Origin: Cyclobacteriaceae bacterium
GTDB taxonomy: Bacteria > Bacteroidota > Bacteroidia > Cytophagales > Cyclobacteriaceae
Direction: 5' to 3'
Assembly (NCBI GenBank): GCA_024644875.1
Contig: JAHEGY010000046.1
Coordinates: 1 to 33,401 of the forward strand
DNA length: 33,401 bases
Positions 1,647 through 21,374 of the stretch are shown here, in pieces (the stretch's first letter is position 1; every line of letters starts with the position of its first letter). Both the position numbers and the translations under genes were made by a program. Under the pieces are notes generated by a model that did no database searches, was not told where the DNA came from, and worked only from the letters and a program-made list of their open reading frames with translations.

Positions 1647-1883
1647 ATGGAACGATCAGATATAGTATTAATCCGCAAAAAGAACATGGAATTTGAATTA
1701 AAAAGCCAGGACCTAAATGAATTTGAAAGACTTTGCGATAAAATTCTTTGCAATCCCGTAATCAGATCAGCAGGTTTTGATGATGATCTTAAAGTAACAG
1801 TCAACCTGAATGGAAGCCATCTCGCTGATTTTTCAATGCTGATCAGAGATATTAAAGTTGAGGTTGCTGAATTGCGTATCTGA
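1647..1883 (+). CDS. Small protein of unknown function (78 aa)
   Basis: The start is either ATG 1647, directly after an in-frame stop, or ATG 1686, giving 65 residues. The product is acidic and soluble. The segment ERLCDKILCNPVI resembles the C-terminal part of PurS-type proteins (consensus like MCEKLLANPVIEDY), but the N-terminal PurS half is absent and no pur gene is nearby, so the likeness may be chance. The opposite strand has an overlapping 92-codon frame that is Ser/Leu/Arg-rich and looks like an antisense shadow; I prefer the plus frame for its protein-like composition. It could be a true short gene or a remnant. Confidence 0.45.
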   Translation: MERSDIVLIRKKNMEFELKSQDLNEFERLCDKILCNPVIRSAGFDDDLKVTVNLNGSHLADFSMLIRDIKVEVAELRI

Positions 1884-2138: not shown

Positions 2139-2154
2139 TGGCACAAGCTTGGCA
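2139..2154 (+). promoter_or_regulatory. Sigma-54 (-24/-12) promoter
   Basis: The sequence TGGCACAAGCTTGGCA has the invariant GG (2140-2141) and GC (2152-2153) separated by exactly ten bases, with the extended TGGCAC box. It matches the RpoN consensus TGGCACrnnnnTTGCw at all but one specified position. A start of transcription near 2165 would leave a leader of about 20 bases before the ATG at 2186. It implies control by an enhancer-binding activator; I see no clear activator site upstream. Confidence 0.75.
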
Positions 2155-2185
2155 TAATTTAAGGTGAGATTAAATTACTATTATA

Positions 2186-2521
2186 ATGAAAAACCTTAAT
2201 AAAGCTAAATTTTTCGGATGTCTTACAGTTCTCTTAATCATTAACATCCAACAATCCACAGCACTGTCCGCCATGGATATCGGATCAATTATAGAAACAA
2301 ATGATTATGAGATTCTAAATGATATTCAGGAACTATTGGCTGAACACCAGTCCATGAATGAGCCGGAGATAGTTTCGGTTGAAATAGTGGACCAGAACTT
2401 CAACGTGATTGCTTTTGGAAATGAAAACGATAATAAAATAGAAAAATTGATAAACAGATCCGATCTGATCACTGAAATAACGGGAAAGAAATTTTTCCGT
2501 CTGTGCTATGAGACTGAGTAG
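2186..2521 (+). CDS. Small secreted protein of unknown function (111 aa)
   Basis: Residues 1-29 form a classic signal peptide (Lys-rich start, a hydrophobic stretch around GCLTVLLIINI, then STALSA before the likely cleavage). The mature part of about 80 residues is acidic and has a short repeat-like pattern 'SVEIVDQNFNVIAFGNEND ... RSDLITEITGKKFFRL', which looks like a compact beta-rich fold. No cysteine pair, lipobox or enzyme motif is seen. It stands alone behind a sigma-54 promoter and ahead of a terminator hairpin, so it is its own transcription unit. Small exported proteins of this kind are common and unstudied in Bacteroidota; function unknown. Confidence 0.75.
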   Translation: MKNLNKAKFFGCLTVLLIINIQQSTALSAMDIGSIIETNDYEILNDIQELLAEHQSMNEPEIVSVEIVDQNFNVIAFGNENDNKIEKLINRSDLITEITGKKFFRLCYETE

Positions 2522-2641: not shown

Positions 2642-5077
2642 TTAACCCATTAGAATTTCAACCTGGTTCTCGCTTCCTGCAGCGCAGATTGGAATTATGG
2701 GATCATCAATGTACTTACCATTCAGCTTGATAGATTTTACCCCCTTACTCACATGGTCCGGATTTTTAACCGTGATCTGATATATAGCACCCCTGAAGTT
2801 TCGGGTTATATTGAAACTATCCCAGCTTGCGGGGATACAAGGATCAACGATCAATCCATCGTAATCGGGTTGGATCCCCAGGATATATTGAGTTATAGCA
2901 TAGTAATTCCATGCAGCTGTTCCTGTCAACCATGAATTTTTAGCCTCACCGGGTTTAAAGGCATCTTTCCCGGCTATCATCTGAGCATATACATAAGGCT
3001 CCGTTTTATGAAGATCGCTGATCCCTTCAAGAAAGGACGGGGCTATTTTCTTATAGTAATCGTAAGCCCGGTCACCTCTACCCAATAAGGTCTCTCCGAT
3101 CATGATCCATGGATTATTATGGCAGAAAATTCCTGCATTCTCTTTATATCCTGCGGGATAGGTAGAGATCTCTCCGTATTCAATAATATACTTAGTGAAT
3201 GCCGGGTTATTCAGTACAATGCCATATTCGCAATCAAGTTTTTCCTTTACAGAATCAAGAGCAGTCAAAGCACGTCCATCTTCCAATCCGATACCTGCCA
3301 TGGTACAAAATCCCTGTGATTCTATGAATATCTTCCCTTCCTCATTTTCATCGCTGCCCACTTTATTGCCATAGAAATCATAGGCCCGGATAAACCACTT
3401 CCCATCCCATCCATGATTATCGATGGCATTCTTCATATTTTCGATATGTTTCTCTGCTTCCCTGGCTATGTCTGTCTTTCCAATTTGATTGCACAGATCG
3501 ACAAGATCGGAACCGTATAAGACAAACATGCCTGCTATCATGACGGATTCAGCACTGCCACCTTCTTTATTCTGGGTGGTCTGAAAAGATTCATTGGGGT
3601 CGTTTGAAAAGCAATTCAGGTTAAGGCAATCATTCCAGTCTGCCCTGCCTATCAATGGTAATCCATGTGGACCAAGGTTATTGACTACATGATAGAAAGA
3701 CCGTATCAGATGTTCGAAATGGCTCTGGGCGACACTTTCATCATTATCAAAAGGTACTTCTTCATCTAAAATGGAATAATCACCTGTTTCCTTTATATAT
3801 GCTATAGTCGATAAAATAAGCCACAAGGGATCATCATTAAAATTTCCCCCGATGGCATCATTTCCTCTTTTTGTCAATGGCTGGTATTGATGGTAGGCTC
3901 CGCCATCTTCAAATTGTGTAGCGGCTATATCAAGAATTCTCTCACGGGCTCTTTCAGGAACCTGGTGTACAAAACCGATCAGGTCCTGGTTCGAATCCCT
4001 GAAACCCATTCCCCGGCCAATCCCGGATTCAAAATAGGAAGCACTCCTGGAAAAATTGAAGGTGATCATACACTGGTATTGGTTCCATATATTGACCATT
4101 CTATCAAGTTTCTCATCGCCACTCTGGATCTGGTATTTTGACAGCAGATCATCCCAGAAATCACCCAATTTCTTCAGGGCAGCATCCACTTTTTCAACAG
4201 AATCAAAAGAGCTGATCATATCCTTAGCTTTCTGCTTATTAATAACTCCTTTTGATTCCCATTTCCCGTCAGATTCATTTTCCACGTATCCAAGCATGAA
4301 TATCAGGTCTTTGGATTCTCCCGGTTCCAATTCAATTTCTATACAATGAGAAGCAACAGGTGACCATCCATGGGCTATATTGTTATTTAATACACCCTTT
4401 TCAACGGCAGCAGGTTTTTCGAATCCGTTATAGAGTCCTAAAAACGAATCCCTGTCCGTTTCGAATCCATTGATCGGGGAATTTACAGAGAAGAAAGCAT
4501 AATGATCCCTTCGCTCTTTATATTCTGTTTTGTGATAAATCACCGATCCTTCGACTTCCACCTCCCCTGTTGAGAAATTCCTCTGGAAATTGGTCATATC
4601 ATCTTCTGCATTCCAGAGACACCATTCCACGAAAGAAAATAACTTGAATTTTTTTGTTTCCACGCCATTATTCTTCAGACAGACCTTCTGGATCTCTCCC
4701 CAGAAACCAAGAGGTACAAAGTATAATATATCAGCCGACAATCCATTCTTCTGTCCGGTAATGCGGGTATAGCTGAGTCCATGACGGCATTCATATTTAT
4801 CCAATCCAGTTTTCGCTGGTTTCCATCCAGGCGACCAGATGGTATCACCTTCTTTTATATAGAAATATTTTCCGCCATCATCGATTGGTACGTTATTATA
4901 CCTGAACCGGGTAATCCTTCTATATTTCGCATCTTTATAAAAAGAATAACCCCCAGCCGTATTAGAGATCAAACTGAAAAAATCCTCATTCCCTAAATAA
5001 TTGATCCATGGATAAGGTGTTTTTGGATCAGTAATAACATATTCTTTATTCTTATCATCAAAAAATCCGTATTTCAT
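2642..5077 (-). CDS. Cellobiose phosphorylase (GH94)
   Basis: This cytoplasmic enzyme splits cellobiose with phosphate into glucose 1-phosphate and glucose, saving one ATP. The 811 residues match the length of characterised bacterial cellobiose phosphorylases (about 810-820), and similarity to them is visible from the first residues ([24 protein letters not shown]) to the end. Conserved blocks include [19 protein letters not shown] (about 45-63), [35 protein letters not shown] (catalytic acid expected at Asp483), [14 protein letters not shown] and [15 protein letters not shown]. There is no signal peptide. The SSS symporter gene lies 25 bases upstream on the same strand, so uptake and phosphorolysis are likely co-expressed. 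Specificity for another beta-glucoside (for example laminaribiose or chitobiose) is less likely given the overall match. Confidence 0.93.
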
Positions 5078-5102: not shown

Positions 5103-6932
5103 TTATTTATCTTTGGGGAGCTTATCCCACCATGTTTTCTTAAGTATTATAGTACAAACAACAGCCACCGCTATACTTATTATGGTAGGAACCCCTTCCA
5201 GCAGCACAATATAAATGGGGAAGATGACCAGTGCAGTTTGCCAGATAATACCTATAACCACATTGAACATATCCCTTTTAAAGTTTTTATTTTTCTTGAA
5301 ATCAGGATCTTCGGCGATTACTTTATCGTGAATGGGTTTCCAGAAACCCCAGGGGCGGACATTTTTATAAAACTTCTTCAACACATCCTCATCCACCGGA
5401 GGTGCGAGATAAGTGCCAAGGATGCAACCTGTTACGGCTATCAAGAGCATCAATGGGAAGGTATAAAGATCCAGCACGCCGGAGAAAATATACCTGAATG
5501 ATAAGGCCGGAATCAATCCACCAACCATCCCCCAGAAGAATCCATGCCCGTTGAAACGCCACCAGTACCATTTCAGTACATTGGCAGCTACATAACTACC
5601 ATAAAGGCCGGAAACAATCCATTGCAGTACATCATTGACATCTTTCGCATAGAACCCAAAGATGATACTTATTATCACCATTGTAAGACCCGCGATATAA
5701 TTAATGGACTTTATCTTGATATTAGAGGCCGTAGGATTAATATATTTCAGGTAAATATCATTGACAATATAAGCCTGGGTAGCATTTAGGGTGCCAGCGA
5801 ACGTTGACATAAAAGCTGCCAGCAGGCCGGCCAACAACAATCCCATAAATCCAACTGGTACAAACTCGTTTATGGCTGAAGGCAGGATCTGTTCAAAATC
5901 GATACTACCGGCAACTATCAGGTCCAGCTTATCATAATAGATTATCCCTAAAACAGCAAAACCGGCAATCATAAAATACCTAATAGGCATCAGTATTATA
6001 GAAACGGATCCACTCATCAGGGCAGCCTCGCGGGGTGATTTCGAAGACAGTATTTTCTGCATATCATAGGTAGGCGCCGGGCCGGCCATACTTACCAGAA
6101 TACCTTTAAATACCATCATCATAAAAAGTACCGAAAACAGGGAGAATCCATCTTCCGTAATTTTCCTGTTGACTTCAGCTACAATTCCGGACCAGTCAAG
6201 ATCAAGATTCCAGCCAAAGAATGGGCTCTTCCAGCCGGCAGGAACCAGAAATTCGTTGGCTGCCATGGCGTTCATAGCGATAATGCCAATGACAATACTG
6301 GAAAGTGCCATGATAATATATTGGATCAGGTCTGCCCAGACTATACTCATCATTCCACCCAGGAGGGCATAAAGGACGGCAAATATGGTAAATACGATCC
6401 CATATACATGGGCGACATATTCGGGGGCCACCTCGAAGGGGATATATGGAGAAACAATCTCCCAGGGTAAGAATATCTCGACAAATTTACCCAGGCCGAT
6501 AAATCCGTAGGCCAGGTATCCAAGGCCCATGATCAAAGCAAAAATGACAACGACCTTGTGACTTAACCTGGCACCTCCTCCAAATCCGAACCGTGTCCCG
6601 ATCCATTCAGCACCGGTAGTTACATTTGACCGTCTTAACCACATGGATAAAAATACCATCAAAAAGATCTGGTTAAAAACCGGCCAAAGCCATGGCAGCC
6701 AGACACTCTTCAATCCATACACAAACAATATGGTAACAAGCCACATGGTACCTGATATATCGAACATCCCTGAGGCATTCGAAAGCCCGAGCAGATACCA
6801 GGGCAACCTGTTTCCTCCAAGCAGATAGTTTTGTTTACTTTTTTGTGCCCTACGTCTTAAAACCAGTCCGATGATCACAGTTGAGGCCAGGTAGAGGCAG
6901 ATGATGAGAATATCATATATCGTCAATTGCAT
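5103..6932 (-). CDS. Sodium:solute symporter (SSS/SLC5 family), probable sugar importer
   Basis: This inner-membrane protein uses the sodium gradient to import a small solute. The 609 residues contain many hydrophobic helices typical of the LeuT-fold SSS family. Residues 30-55 carry the family's [20 protein letters not shown] signature, and [20 protein letters not shown] (about 374-392) is the TM8-type segment whose Ser376/Thr377 are expected to line the Na2 site. The C terminus is extended past the core by a loop and further helices (about 500-609), as in other bacterial sugar-type SSS proteins. Co-transcription with GH94 phosphorylase points to cellobiose or a related beta-glucoside as substrate; this is inferred from context, not from binding residues. 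Confidence 0.88.
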
Positions 6933-7709: not shown

Positions 7710-9044
7710 CTAGTTAGGGTTTAGCATTCCATATCCATGTTCTCCATGATAGGCACTATCAAGTCCTTCCATTTCGCTCTTTGCTGATGACCTCATTCCA
7801 AATAACTTGTCCGTTATCCAGATTATAATCAAAGTCAGTACAGCTGCATAAACTATAGCAATCAGAACGGCTGCTACCTGTACGCCCAATTGCTGCATCA
7901 TGGACCAGCTTCCGCCAGCTGCAGCAGCGGCATCTGCCATCCAGGATTCCCTTATAAAGAAAGTTAAGAAAATGGCCCCAACTATCCCTCCAATACCATG
8001 AATTCCAAAGGCATCAAGACTGTCATCGTATCCAAGCTTGTTTTTCATAATAATTGCATAATAACACAATGCTGATGCTATGATCCCTAAGATCAATGCA
8101 CCGAAGGGCTTGACTACACCTGCCGCAGGGGTTACCGCAACAAGTCCTGCCAATATCCCGGAAACAAATCCCAATGCTGTGGCTTTGCCAGCATGAAAAT
8201 ATTCTATGATAATCCAGGCAATAGCACCTGAGGCAGCGGCGACCTGAGTGGCGGTCAGAGCCTGTGCAGTGGACAATCCGCTGGCGATACTACTTCCTGC
8301 ATTGAAACCAAACCAACCTACCCACAGAAGGCCCCCACCTATCATGGTCATTACAAGGTTGCTTGGCGGAATACTGGTTTTAGGAAAGCCTCTCCTTGCT
8401 CCTAAATAAAGTGCTGCCACTAAACCGCTAACTCCGGCAGAAATATGAACAACTGTTCCACCGGCAAAGTCGATGGCCCCATTGGCACCCAAATTAAACA
8501 GGAATCCATCTTCAGCCCATACCCAGTGACATAAAGGATTATACACGAATATCCCCCATACGGCTATGAAAAATACATAGGCCTTGAAATTCACTCTTTC
8601 TGCGAAGGCTCCGGCAATAAGGGCGGGTGTAATAATTGCGAATTTTCCCTGGAACATTGAGAACACATATTCCGGAACACCAGCTTCAAGAATGGATTCA
8701 TCAATTCCATCCAGGAATACATAAGCGGAATTCCACCCGAACCAACCCCACAATACATTGCTGCCAAAGGTCATGCTGTAACCGACAATGACCCATAATA
8801 TGGTCATTACACCCATAGCTGCAAAACTATGCATCATGGTGCCTAATACATTCTTTGTCCTTACCAATCCACCGTAAAACATGGCCAGACCCGGAACCAT
8901 TAACAGGACCAGGGCGGTTGAGGTAAGCATCCATGCTGTGGCGCCGCTGTCTATCTCAGCACCATCAGAAGCAAACAGACTTCCTGAACTTATCAGTAAA
9001 AAGAAGCCTGTAACATACAAAACTTTCCAATTAAACTTTTTCAT
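7710..9044 (-). CDS. amtB: Ammonium transporter AmtB
   Basis: This trimeric inner-membrane channel takes up ammonium. A cleavable signal peptide (about residues 1-26, ending SLFAS) precedes eleven expected helices. Family marks include MLTSTALVLLMVPGLAMFYGG (39-59), the twin pore histidines His200 (GGTVVHISAG) and His349 (DAFGIHGIGG), and the FAERVNFKAY block (147-156). The 444-residue length is usual. A cytoplasmic tail with GMRSSAKSEMEGLDSAYHGE is the standard C-terminal region needed for PII interaction. Downstream PII shares the operon. Expression is likely tied to nitrogen supply; a near-palindrome lies about 65-90 bases before the start. Confidence 0.96.
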   Translation of the reverse strand: MKKFNWKVLYVTGFFLLISSGSLFASDGAEIDSGATAWMLTSTALVLLMVPGLAMFYGGLVRTKNVLGTMMHSFAAMGVMTILWVIVGYSMTFGSNVLWGWFGWNSAYVFLDGIDESILEAGVPEYVFSMFQGKFAIITPALIAGAFAERVNFKAYVFFIAVWGIFVYNPLCHWVWAEDGFLFNLGANGAIDFAGGTVVHISAGVSGLVAALYLGARRGFPKTSIPPSNLVMTMIGGGLLWVGWFGFNAGSSIASGLSTAQALTATQVAAASGAIAWIIIEYFHAGKATALGFVSGILAGLVAVTPAAGVVKPFGALILGIIASALCYYAIIMKNKLGYDDSLDAFGIHGIGGIVGAIFLTFFIRESWMADAAAAAGGSWSMMQQLGVQVAAVLIAIVYAAVLTLIIIWITDKLFGMRSSAKSEMEGLDSAYHGEHGYGMLNPN

Positions 9045-9110
9045 CGATTAATTTTAAACCTGATTTTTAATAAATTATGTGTTTTTTAATTTTTTTGGCT
9101 ATTATTTTAG

Positions 9111-9133
9111 TGCAATAATAAATTATTTATGCA
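9111..9133. promoter_or_regulatory. Near-palindrome upstream of amtB, possible operator
   Basis: A 23-base element has outer half-sites TGCA ... TGCA and inner AATAA/TTATT around a central A, with mismatches only next to the outer tetramers and at the centre. It lies in an AT-rich 187-base gap between miaA and amtB, 67 bases before the amtB ATG. It could bind a dimeric regulator of nitrogen uptake; no regulator is identified. Confidence 0.35.
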
Positions 9134-9231
9134 AAAAAACGTAATATTAGTTCTAAATTAAACGGTATATTTAATTTTTTTCGGTTTTTTGTTGAAATGA
9201 GGCCTTGAGATGCTTAAATGTATATAACGGG

Positions 9232-10140
9232 CTAATTTGATACAAGGAATTGGCGAATCAATGCCATAATACTATCATAGCTGTCCGGGGCAAACCAATG
9301 AATGCTTTTATCTTTTCTGAACCAGGTTAGCTGGCGTTTGGCATACCGCCTGGTGTTTCTCTTGCAAAGGCGAACAGCCTCATCCAGGTCGTATTTCCTA
9401 TCCAAATAATCAAAAAACTCCGTGTAACCTACCGTTTGAAGTGCCGTAAGGTCTCTGCAGGGCTTTAATGATTTTACCTCCTCAAGCAATCCGGATTGAA
9501 GCATCCTGTCGACACGCTGGTTGATCCTCTCAAAAAGTTCTTCCCGGGGCATATCAAGACCTATTTTTAAAATATCAAAGTTCCTGCTCTTTCTGGATTG
9601 GCTTTTTAAAGCAGAATATTTTTTGCCCGTCTGATGTATTATTTCCAATGCCCTCAAAACCCTTTTCGAATTTTTCAGATCGATGGTTTTCCAGGTGCTA
9701 TAATCCAGACGCTTTAACTCATCAACGAGCGGGTCCAGACCCTTGTCCTCAAGCCGGCCCTGAAGCATATTTCTAAGCTCGGGATCAGGACTGGGGAATT
9801 CGTCAATCCCGTCACAAACGGCTTGTATATACAAGCCCGAGCCTCCGGTCAACAATACAATGTCTTTTTTATATCTTTTGAGAAGCGCTATAGTGTCCAC
9901 TTCAAACCGTCCTGCACTGTAGTAATCATATATGCTTTTATAATTAATGAAATAGTGCTTTACCAGGGCCAATTCCTGAGGCGAAGGTTTAGCCGTTCCA
10001 ATATCCATTTCCCGGTAAATCTGACGTGAATCAGCCGATATAATATCACATTCCAAGGCCTTAGCCAGCTGGATAGAGAGGTCTGTTTTCCCAATTGCAG
10101 TAGGGCCTGATACAACAATCAATTTCAGTTTGTCGTTCAT
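9232..10140 (-). CDS. miaA: tRNA dimethylallyltransferase MiaA
   Basis: MiaA transfers a dimethylallyl group to N6 of A37 in tRNAs reading codons that start with U, which steadies codon-anticodon pairing. The 302 residues show the P-loop GPTAIGKT (12-19), the DxxQxYR-type block SADSRQIYREMDIGTAKP, the GGSGLYIQAV segment and the late QLTWFRKDKSIHWF motif, all diagnostic. Full family length, ATG start. It is a lone gene divergent from the histidine kinase gene and upstream of amtB on the same strand, 187 bases away, so probably a separate unit. Confidence 0.97.
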   Translation of the reverse strand: MNDKLKLIVVSGPTAIGKTDLSIQLAKALECDIISADSRQIYREMDIGTAKPSPQELALVKHYFINYKSIYDYYSAGRFEVDTIALLKRYKKDIVLLTGGSGLYIQAVCDGIDEFPSPDPELRNMLQGRLEDKGLDPLVDELKRLDYSTWKTIDLKNSKRVLRALEIIHQTGKKYSALKSQSRKSRNFDILKIGLDMPREELFERINQRVDRMLQSGLLEEVKSLKPCRDLTALQTVGYTEFFDYLDRKYDLDEAVRLCKRNTRRYAKRQLTWFRKDKSIHWFAPDSYDSIMALIRQFLVSN

Positions 10141-13200: not shown

Positions 13201-14627
13201 ACCAGAAACATTACATCCAGACTATTAAAAAATCATCGGAAACACTCCTGAATATTCTCAATGATATTCTGGACCTCTCTAAAATCGAAGCAGGCAAAAT
13301 GCAGCTGAAGTGTGAGCCTGTGAAATTGAGGAATACAATGGATAAGATCTACGCATTGTTTGCACAGCAGGCGCTTTCCAAAAATATAAATCTGTATTAT
13401 CACTTGAGTGAGAAACTCCCGGAATATGTATTGATTGATGAAACAAGGCTCCTGCAGATTCTATCTAACCTGATATCAAATGCTATTAAATTTACTGAAG
13501 GGGGCGGGTCTATCGATATCGATCTGAAGAAGGCCAGAATTCCGGGTCAAAAAAACATTGTCCGGTGCGTGGTCAGTGATTCCGGTATCGGTATTTCACC
13601 AGAAAATATAAGAAGGCTGTTTGGCATATTCAGCCAGATCGATAACAGCACTACAAAGTCTTATAGCGGCACCGGGCTTGGTCTTGCAATATCCAAGGAA
13701 TTAGCCAGGCTTATGGGTGGTAAAATTGGTGTCTATTCCACTTTGGGACTAGGTAGCTCGTTCTGGTTCACCTTCGAGGCAGAACCCACTAAAAAAACCG
13801 TTATTATCGAAAATAAAATTGTAGATAATGACATTACAATTGAAGGTTATTTTGAAGAAGAGCAACCGAAGATCCTGCTGGTCGATGACAATGGAGTTAA
13901 CAGGCAGGTGGCCGGTGAGATTCTCAAAAAAGCAGGCTGTATAGTTACACTTGTAGAGAATGGGAAAAGAGCCATCGAACTGGCTGCAACAAACAGATAT
14001 GACCTTATTTTTATGGACATCCAGATGCCCGAAATGGACGGCGTAACAGCTACCAGGAAAATTAAGGAAATGAATCTTGAGGTACAACCACCAATTGTGG
14101 CCATGACGGCCTATTCGATGAAAGAGGATAAAGAACGATTTCTAAGCCAGGGACTCGATGATTACGTTGCCAAACCAATACGTGCCAACGATTTGCTGAA
14201 TAAGGTAAGACAATGGGTCTTGGATGAACAGATATTCAATGGAGAAGGAAGTGAAGATCCGGAATATGGAGAGATCCTCAATATGGACACAGTGAATCAG
14301 CTAATAGACCTTGGTGGAGAGGAAATGGTACATCAGGTGTTCAATGATTTTCTCGAAGAAACTACAGAGCAGATCAATTCAAGCATAAAAGCCGCGAAAA
14401 AAGATGATTATGAAGAAATAAGAAAACATCTTCACACATTAAAGGGTAATGCGGGTACACTTGGAGTTGAGAAATTATCCAAGCAGGCTGAAATGATAGA
14501 AAAAAATATAAAAAATGAAAACTATAAAACCCTTGAAGAAGATCTAAAATTGCTTAACTTAACATTCGAAGAGTTTAAAAATAAGTTTAACCAAATATTA
14601 AAAACATCTAAAGATGAGCGCCCCTAA
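10242..14627 (+). CDS. Hybrid sensor histidine kinase with PAS repeats, GAF, REC and Hpt
   Basis: A phosphorelay hub of about 1460 residues. ATG 10242 is used; an in-frame TTG at 10215 would add nine residues, and residue numbers here count from that TTG. No membrane segment is seen, so it should be cytoplasmic. Order: degenerate PAS (about 35-145), PAS (160-265), PAS (295-405), PAS (413-535), GAF (540-695), PAS (700-825), PAS (830-945), HisKA with NMSHEIRTPMNG (His972), HATPase with NAIKFT, DSGIGIS and GTGLGLAISK (about 1075-1195), REC with MDIQMPEMDG (Asp1268), and Hpt with HTLKGNAGTLG (His1407). All phospho-accepting residues are present. The gene overlaps the downstream receiver gene by 14 bases, making that receiver the natural final acceptor. 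The ligand is unknown; the PAS/GAF array suggests several inputs such as redox or small molecules. Confidence 0.93.
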   Translation: MKSKKKPGVIKKLKDQTEDHVVEMSVYLSPSVEFRDMYITRAYDISDLFGFRPDELEGVSIGVLFPEFQEKERLSNTFFSEIIDDLDEGHSVGREMNFQHRHGFEFKENVRVIHREDDTFVMEFTNRTAGLMNDHLLEDLAKRGSKTKNISRHTPFLIRMSNDKNEFYYFSKQWLLYTGSRLKDELNNGWINHVHPDDKLVLEDALKKAFRSKSKYDLTYRLYRYDSKVNLVYESGIPLYDNDGNYMGYIATAIEKGDYVSQQKKDKIHGFLESEKKLQESLNYSNLISLTINRNQQVTYCNDNFANLIGLDKETILGADVYNFLEFINTNGDQIHPVIDLFDRKKDARTIDAYLNSTFRENSKISFSPILLCDEESEMPSITLVGENITEKMKVSNALEKSNQQLKSLFDSANDLIQIVSPDGNFLFVNKTWKDKLGYANDDIPNLTFKDILEESVQENTLGKLAELSEENNELKIDTILKTKDGDKVFVTGNLNCSYVKGKKKECRGIFFDVTERLKAEKAQNLYYSISNLTFNTADLDSLFIEIHKELQKIVTADNFYVALCDEAKTNIQFPYFKDSKSKDVKKILNRPFGDGLTEYAITNQKPVFYTEKDLIQLQEDKKLNIYGSIPKVWLGVPLKQGGNIIGIIVVQSYSNKKTYSRKDLDLLVFISSQIATAIDRQQKQIKIREQSARMQSIFESGDHMIWSVDRALLFSSYNHNFSDFVKSNYMVDSKFSKPPQDINEINRTVFWELKYNNAFEGKSVQFELKFINYKTKKISWKNIILNPIFLEDNVIEEVSGMAYDITDKKHSEIALRKSEEEFRDIFESFQDVYFRCSFDGEITMLSPSVKEFLGYEAEELIGKDITNYYLYSKKSKDLLKNLVKEKSIRDFEAALIHKDSRIIQSLCNLRLVYDNKMESVALEGVARDITKLKETNIELKQAKEVAERSLKVKELFLANMSHEIRTPMNGIIGMIDLMEGTTITPDQKHYIQTIKKSSETLLNILNDILDLSKIEAGKMQLKCEPVKLRNTMDKIYALFAQQALSKNINLYYHLSEKLPEYVLIDETRLLQILSNLISNAIKFTEGGGSIDIDLKKARIPGQKNIVRCVVSDSGIGISPENIRRLFGIFSQIDNSTTKSYSGTGLGLAISKELARLMGGKIGVYSTLGLGSSFWFTFEAEPTKKTVIIENKIVDNDITIEGYFEEEQPKILLVDDNGVNRQVAGEILKKAGCIVTLVENGKRAIELAATNRYDLIFMDIQMPEMDGVTATRKIKEMNLEVQPPIVAMTAYSMKEDKERFLSQGLDDYVAKPIRANDLLNKVRQWVLDEQIFNGEGSEDPEYGEILNMDTVNQLIDLGGEEMVHQVFNDFLEETTEQINSSIKAAKKDDYEEIRKHLHTLKGNAGTLGVEKLSKQAEMIEKNIKNENYKTLEEDLKLLNLTFEEFKNKFNQILKTSKDERP

Positions 14628-20123: not shown

Positions 20124-21374
20124 ATGGATCTTAAAAAAGTAGTAGTAACCGGAATCGGTGCGCTAACTCCTATAGGTAAAAACGTCAGTGAATTCTGGCA
20201 TGGGCTATCTAATGGCGTTAGCGGTGCTGCTGATATAACAAGATTCGATACAACCCACTTCCGGACAAAATTTGCCTGTGAGGTTAAGGATTATGATCCT
20301 TTTGATCACTTCGACAGGAAAGAGGCCCGGAAGATGGATTATTTTACTCAATTTGCATTGATTGCTGCCGGTGAAGCTGTTGAAAACAGTGGACTGGAAA
20401 CAGATTCGATCAATCTTGATCGTGCAGGAATAGTCTGGGCAGCAGGAATCGGGGGACTGAAAACCATCAGCGACGAAATAATTAGTTATGCTGATAACGA
20501 CAGGATTCCGCGGTTCAGCCCCTTTCTCATTCCAAAATTAATACCTGATATCAGCGCTGGCCATTTATCCATAATTCATGGATTCCGTGGACCAAATTAT
20601 GCAACCGTTTCTGCATGTGCTTCTGCAACAAATGCTTTGATTGACGCTTTTCACCTGATCAAATTAGGAAAAGCAGATGTGATAATCTCCGGTGGATCAG
20701 AAGCTGCTATTACTGAAGTTGGTGTTGGCGGTTTCAGCTCAATGAAAGCATTATCTGAAAGGAACGATTCTCCTGAAACAGCATCCAGACCTTTTGATAA
20801 AGATCGGGATGGATTTGTAATGGGAGAAGGGGCTGGTGCTCTAATACTGGAGGAATATGAACATGCCAAAGCAAGGGGTGCAAAGATCTATTGCGAATTG
20901 ATCGGAGCTGGATTATCTGCTGATGCACATCATATCACTGCCCCTCACCCTGATGGACTGGGTGCAAAACTGGTTATGAAGAATGCCCTTGAGGATGCAG
21001 AAATCTCCCCGGAGGAAATGGATTATGTAAATGTTCATGGAACATCCACACCTTTGGGAGATATCAGTGAAGTGCTGGCTATAAAGGAAGTTTTTGGAAA
21101 GCACGCCTATAATTTAAATATTGGTGCAACAAAATCCATGACTGGCCACCTTCTGGGGGCTGCTGGTGGAGTGGAAGCAATTGCCTGTATACTTGCCATG
21201 CAGAATAATATTATCCCTCCAACAATAAATCACTTCACCGACGACGATAATTTAGATAATAACCTTAATTTTACATTTAACAAGGCACAATCCAGAGAGA
21301 TAAACGTAGCCTTAAGTAATACATTTGGGTTTGGAGGTCATAATACCTCTGTTATTTTTAGGAAAATAGTATAA
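20124..21374 (+). CDS. fabF: 3-oxoacyl-ACP synthase II
   Basis: This condensing enzyme extends acyl-ACP by two carbons with malonyl-ACP in fatty-acid synthesis. The 416 residues contain the Cys-His-His active site: Cys165 (VSACASATNAL), His305 (VNVHGTSTPLGD) and His342 (MTGHLLGAAG), with Lys337 and the late NTFGFGGHN glycine loop. Length and motif order fit FabF rather than FabB. acpP is upstream; rnc starts 2 bases after the stop, so they are co-transcribed. Confidence 0.97.
   Translation: MDLKKVVVTGIGALTPIGKNVSEFWHGLSNGVSGAADITRFDTTHFRTKFACEVKDYDPFDHFDRKEARKMDYFTQFALIAAGEAVENSGLETDSINLDRAGIVWAAGIGGLKTISDEIISYADNDRIPRFSPFLIPKLIPDISAGHLSIIHGFRGPNYATVSACASATNALIDAFHLIKLGKADVIISGGSEAAITEVGVGGFSSMKALSERNDSPETASRPFDKDRDGFVMGEGAGALILEEYEHAKARGAKIYCELIGAGLSADAHHITAPHPDGLGAKLVMKNALEDAEISPEEMDYVNVHGTSTPLGDISEVLAIKEVFGKHAYNLNIGATKSMTGHLLGAAGGVEAIACILAMQNNIIPPTINHFTDDDNLDNNLNFTFNKAQSREINVALSNTFGFGGHNTSVIFRKIV

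Follow-up and report, generated by a model that had tools for sequence, protein, structure and literature searches.

A sigma-54-type promoter shared by a dispersed family of small acidic exported proteins in Cyclobacteriaceae

Background

Peptide-sensing systems of the Bce type pair a kinase whose two membrane helices are joined by hardly any loop with an FtsX-type transporter, and at sigma-54 promoters in other systems IHF plays a DNA-bending role. Within the phylum of the organism studied here, the portions of the published record considered cover the sigma-54 regulon of Flavobacterium psychrophilum, for which three activators were reported (PMC9723704), and the regulation of FtsX-like and further ABC permeases by sigma-54 in Bacteroidia (PMC12316311). 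Exported proteins under sigma-54 control are already known as such; the protein family, regulon, enhancer, extra dyad and spread reported below were described in none of the papers listed by searches of the open-access literature (preprints excluded), and the family, its enhancer, the extra dyad and their spread appear new in that sense.

The locus and its promoter

The window, i.e., the whole stretch of DNA analysed (33,401 nucleotides of a Cyclobacteriaceae bacterium, contig JAHEGY010000046.1), carries a sigma-54 -24/-12 element, TTGGCACAAGCTTGGCA, at 2138-2154 on the forward strand, called from comparative evidence together with a weighted score. Its GG lies at 2140-2141 and, ten bases on, its GC at 2152-2153, one mismatch away from TGGCACNNNNNTTGCW. 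On the same strand, the gene of a 111-aa exported acidic protein runs from the ATG at 2186 to the stop codon ending at 2521, the ATG lying 46 bases downstream of the leading G in the -24 GG, and the position of the element predicts a transcription start near 2165. The first-pass annotation had proposed just this arrangement, a near-consensus element with exact ten-base GG/GC spacing 32 bases before the ATG of a small exported protein, and the sequence bears it out, both in the distance (counted from 2154) and in the open reading frame, which opens with lysine-rich sequence and has a hydrophobic segment. The gene had also been given a terminator: a terminator-like hairpin does exist at 2608-2633 (unstranded), but its ownership is ambiguous, as it begins 87 nt past the stop codon, lies next to where the convergent gene 2642-5077 ends and may serve either gene or both.

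Two further symmetrical features, neither assigned to a strand, precede the element. An enhancer-like palindrome, TGTCCGGTTTTAAAACA, occupies 2067-2083, 56 bases before the -24 GG, and has one mismatch to TGTnC-N7-GnACA (taken alone, p = 0.03 in 200 shuffles). Nearer the promoter, a second dyad spans 2107-2131 and is centred 21 bases before the GG; its core, CTGATTAATAG, lies at 2114-2124 and its TTA at 2129-2131, and where the consensus has TAA on the left, this copy has TAT. Farther upstream of the gene, at 1686-1883 (+), there is a 65-aa acidic ORF that lacks a signal peptide.

By itself, the -24/-12 element is modest evidence, suggestive and not decisive, and it is the comparison with other loci that decides. 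With up to three mismatches allowed, TGGCACNNNNNTTGCW matches the window 113 times vs 117 in shuffled sequence, and two more one-mismatch matches (5403-5418 and 5781-5796, minus strand) lie within the gene at 5103-6932. The weighted promoter score is more selective, the site at 2138-2154 being the sole one in the window to reach 21 or more; sites as good occurred 0.17 times on average (maximum 1) in 30 windows simulated with a first-order Markov model.

A dispersed family of fast-diverging proteins

Searching the genome with the window protein returned four places, the window's own included, and a profile search of the host genome (G000) gave five strong members and a divergent one, C117. Five strong members were found in the sister genome G001 by the same means, and one strong and one divergent member in G004; scanning G000 with the promoter pattern added C167 as a new family-associated place. 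Built from 29 members, a profile matched at least 75 of the 390 genomes of the host's taxonomic family, belonging to at least 33 of the 84 genera sampled; single genomes gave as many as ten matches, and all of these counts are lower bounds, as the search scored 12 candidates per genome. Only two genomes matched in a phylum-wide sample of 395, and both come from the host's taxonomic family. Thus the gene, described as lone in the first-pass annotation, is indeed isolated in its neighbourhood but is one of a dispersed paralogous family sharing a promoter type. The profile search and the genome-wide scan for the element that the annotation had suggested both proved productive: the former gave paralogues in the genome and relatives across the taxonomic family, the latter 13 sites, of which five precede family genes (reversed control, 4 sites). 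Its view of the protein as one of no named family also stands, as profile scans assigned it to no Pfam or NCBIfam family.

These sequences diverge rapidly. The 89 family proteins fall into 53 clusters at 50% identity, and identity within two syntenic pairs from G000 and G001 is 32% and 33%, vs 53% and 65% for their neighbours. Neighbouring genes were unrelated in the 17 family loci viewed, leaving an operon with neighbours unsupported, and where a family gene lies behind a permease gene, as it does in G394 and G287, it has its own promoter. One locus (L161, G167:C13, 4683-5707) holds tandem family genes with nearly identical N-termini, which suggests a recent duplication.

The window protein starts with a signal peptide (residues 1 to about 29) and continues with an acidic helical middle and, at residues 64-106, a predicted strand-strand-helix-strand-strand domain (block pLDDT 92-97), with which the structure model of L003 agrees. 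This C-terminal domain is the most conserved part of the family proteins. From residue 26 to the end, the net charge has a median of -11 over 89 members, is negative in 96% and amounts to -12 in the window protein.

Database models named little. When scanned over 29 members, each Pfam and PADLOC model matched just one member, the most frequent PHROGs model matched one, and the most frequent NCBIfam model matched three; the best E in NCBIfam was 0.00024, by one member. A Cache sensor domain was considered and set aside, as Cache_WalK reached 17.4 bits in the window protein against a cut-off of 27 and each Cache model matched one of the 29. Type IX secretion cargo was likewise rejected: TIGR04131 (type B sorting) matched 1/29 members, with an E of 0.0018, and no Pfam sorting domain appeared among the 29 at E 0.1. 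In structural comparison, Foldseek returned no match to the L003 model with an E of 0.001 or below, and the best VIA-align Z scores were 3.4 and 3.1; lists as weak or empty as these exclude no fold. Solved structures searched by sequence returned three matches (E 0.07-0.54), none of them convincing, among which 3msw is a weak lead. The C-terminal domain has its elements in the same order as the N-terminal part of IscB (Z 3.1), protein L B1 (Z 3.0) and BofC (Z 2.8); these scores, obtained with the model of the window protein, are all low and equalled by unrelated entries. This is a common small arrangement, with no sequence relation shown.

Shared promoter architecture

We compiled 31 family members and fixed a promoter threshold of 17 after viewing them. 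Left out were weak matches (E about 1e-3 or worse, e.g., L038-L041, L043-L046 and L066-L070), L042, L033 (cut by a contig end) and strong matches without a given locus. Within 160 nt of the start, 28 of the 31 have a -24/-12 element, the exceptions being C117, G004:C59 and G023:C17, and 26 of these 28 also have the palindrome TGTnC-N6/7-GnACA, one mismatch being allowed.

The same threshold was then applied to a hold-out set of 60 members picked among the matches listed and spread over genomes, of which L255 (already used) and L243 (whose contig ends before the promoter) were removed, leaving 58. The best site per upstream stretch was scored, and shuffled sequences were handled likewise. An element was present in 54/58, compared with 6.5 in shuffles and 8/57 in the downstream control (one member lacked a full downstream stretch), and element and palindrome together in 53/58, compared with 0.35 and 0/57. 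Among clusters made up of held-out members only, 28 of 32 have both, each judged on its first member and with kinship handled through clustering at 50% identity alone.

Palindrome centres gather near 62-65, 72-74, 80-84, 94-98 and 105-107 bases before the GG, with one at 131, and are phased at 10.5 bp (Rayleigh p about 2.5e-8, n = 44 clusters; p 8e-5 for exact palindromes, n = 21), with the group at 80-81 bases off the ideal helical step. Phasing of about one helical turn would fit the need of an activator to loop from one face of the helix. Genome scans for the palindrome joined to the -24 box gave 10, 13, 6 and 4 matches in G000, G001, G394 and G335 (reversed control: 5, 1, 2 and 2), many of the matches falling inside genes.

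Aligning 82 promoters also brought out the second dyad, with the consensus tAAnnnncTgatantcagnnnnTTA (small letters marking weaker positions), centred 21 bases before the GG, between the palindrome and the -24 element; positions -1 to +3 and +12 of this consensus are partly fixed by the choice of best site, which leaves the dyad unaffected. CTGAnnnTCAG with up to two mismatches occurs in 34/46 clusters, vs 1, 1 and 2 in three control windows. A pattern uniting the dyad and the -24 box, with three mismatches tolerated, matched 13 places in G000 (reversed control: 0) and 9 in G394 (reversed control: 2). The G000 matches take in C36, C115 and C150 (three of the family's five strong members), a 31-aa ORF (C167), a 102-aa ORF (C47), an ABC ATPase gene (C148) and the gene of a 144-aa exported protein (C213), and the rest have no -12 element or no sensible gene start. 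Since the dyad-bearing promoters at C47 and C148 adjoin other activators, the dyad may belong to the sigma-54 promoters of this lineage in general, and its binder might then be a general sigma-54 partner there. These 82 promoters form a natural set for studying sigma-54 enhancers in Bacteroidota.

Several promoters of this kind precede other genes. The 31-aa ORF recurs in G001 (L114, G000:C167, near 20861-20947; L113, G001:C192, near 277-362; 61% identical), is preceded in both genomes by an exact palindrome and a TTGGCA element, and may encode a microprotein of the same regulon. A 134-aa exported protein (L109, G000:C150, near 33536-33621) has a -24/-12-like element and an exact palindrome, and the 144-aa exported protein (L263, G000:C213, near 13740-13768) a -24/-12-like element and the dyad; family membership was not seen for either, and both are possible extra targets of the regulon. 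Upstream of an FtsX-type permease gene (L014, G000:C89), an element at 148221-148237 is accompanied by two overlapping or adjacent palindromes.

Candidate regulators

Sigma-54 units had been expected to be tied to enhancer-binding response regulators, in keeping with which the host genome holds an RpoN gene and ten Sigma54_activat matches, eight of them strong, including four activators (C203, C186, C30 and C148) that are response regulators followed by a kinase. The C186 pair (G000:C186) consists of a regulator with receiver, sigma-54 activation and Fis-type DNA-binding domains (L119:7349-8731) and a kinase (8721-10076). By simple hydropathy, this kinase starts with one merged hydrophobic segment and those of C203, C30, C148 and Roseivirga with two close hydrophobic segments, the loop being almost absent throughout; in C30 the second segment is reported as two overlapping ones.

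Regulators of the C186 type (at least 68% identity) occur in 17/22 genomes searched, among them four without a family match (G002, G017, G059 and G071). They were not found at that identity in G001 (an 87% complete assembly; best 54%), G023 (best 63%), G010, G012 and G030, and G001 and G023 have family genes despite this. In a set made up of 16 relatives and the host genome (L134, cut by a contig start, and L144, 63% identical, were excluded), the palindrome with at most one mismatch lies within 180 nt before the C186-type gene in 17/17 cases (1.33 expected by shuffling) and is exact in 11/17 (0.05 expected). A loose scan found a -24/-12-like site downstream of this palindrome in five of the relatives (L127, L129, L131, L132 and L135) and no clear one upstream of the host genome's own C186 gene. 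Before C203-type genes the palindrome was found within 250 nt in 7/9 cases with at most one mismatch, and was exact in 3/9.

FtsX-type or ABC genes adjoin some of the sister activators. An FtsX-type permease lies beside the kinase/regulator pair at C148 and, in G394 and G287, near a different activator, from Roseivirga, and there one family gene is found behind the permease gene; the upstream region shared by permease and activator in these genomes has a palindrome that also matches the loose pattern. The family gene occupies the same position in G335, where the permease/activator pair is absent from the 15-kb stretch. No FtsX-like permease or other transporter was found in the 14.7-kb stretch around the C186 pair.

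Proposed mechanism and alternatives

We consider it probable that the window locus is an orphan target of a dispersed two-component sigma-54 regulon whose products are small acidic exported proteins. The family consists mostly of single genes set among unrelated neighbours, before which palindrome, dyad and -24/-12 element follow one another in fixed order and at favoured spacings. A membrane histidine kinase would phosphorylate a response regulator with sigma-54 activation and Fis-type DNA-binding domains, the phosphorylated regulator would bind the palindrome and, upon looping of the DNA, would open the RNA polymerase waiting at the -24/-12 element (2138-2154), so that the scattered family genes would be switched on together. 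Judged from sequence, a sigma-54 promoter at the window locus is well supported, as had been claimed from the element alone and is now upheld by the conservation of element and enhancer before family members, and we infer its dependence on RpoN. That the element is a chance match devoid of regulatory meaning might be argued from the 0.17 equally good sites per simulated window and from a pattern frequency not above that of shuffles. We nevertheless judge the promoter real and a chance match extremely improbable, because the element is conserved before divergent paralogues, in a hold-out test (54/58 vs 6.5 shuffled) that rules chance out and with the controls described.

Which activator acts on the family is a closer question. 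The C186 pair, rather than a sister, is a good candidate, to which we give about even chances. The motif itself fails to single it out, since the palindrome also stands before C203-type genes and in the permease promoter beside a different activator, and G001 has family genes with no close C186-type match. It is thus quite possible, if not the reading we would choose, that the regulon is real and answers to a sister activator, of the C203 type or other, or to several with overlapping sites; against this, the match before C186-type genes is the more regular one (17/17, 11 exact) and the G001 assembly is incomplete. A different role for the products themselves, under the same promoter logic, would make them secreted signals or ligands (in quorum or kin recognition or in feedback on the kinase), with specificity given by the variable middle. 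Such proteins would be exported, short, paralogous and fast-diverging, as these are, the syntenic pairs included; yet it is the folded C-terminal domain that is most conserved, beside the genes viewed neither a processing site nor a dedicated exporter turned up, no receptor is known, and we hold this role to be improbable.

For the regulon of acidic exported proteins, the common promoter logic points to an undescribed cell-envelope response. Because sister systems adjoin FtsX/MacB-type transporters, we tentatively suggest that the system responds to envelope damage or to a cationic antimicrobial compound and that the acidic proteins are protective binders or chaperones in the periplasm or outside the cell, which, speculatively, would bind or buffer something cationic or misfolded beyond the inner membrane. 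Taken as one, the observations could also mean, although we rate this broader proposal as doubtful, that rapidly diversifying acidic exported mini-domain proteins are among the main products of a sigma-54 two-component response in this branch of the Cytophagales, with the dyad bound by a protein in an IHF-like, DNA-bending role. Shared control logic and a candidate regulator make the role of this unnamed family testable.

Comparison with described systems

The likeness to Bce-type peptide sensing is in the kinases beside the four activators, at whose start two hydrophobic segments lie close together or merge, and in the ABC/FtsX genes that adjoin some sister systems; unlike in Bce-type systems, the regulator here is a sigma-54 activator, and the C186 pair has no transporter alongside it in the stretch viewed. 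The F. psychrophilum genome has three activators vs eight strong ones in G000, and the part of that report considered here describes no comparable paralogous family, enhancer palindrome or second dyad (PMC9723704). As regards the sigma-54-controlled permeases of Bacteroidia, the part of the report considered here concerns transporter families, whereas the present family consists of small exported proteins; the likeness lies in the host genome's own FtsX-type permease gene (L014) and ABC ATPase gene (C148), both of which have -24/-12 elements (PMC12316311).
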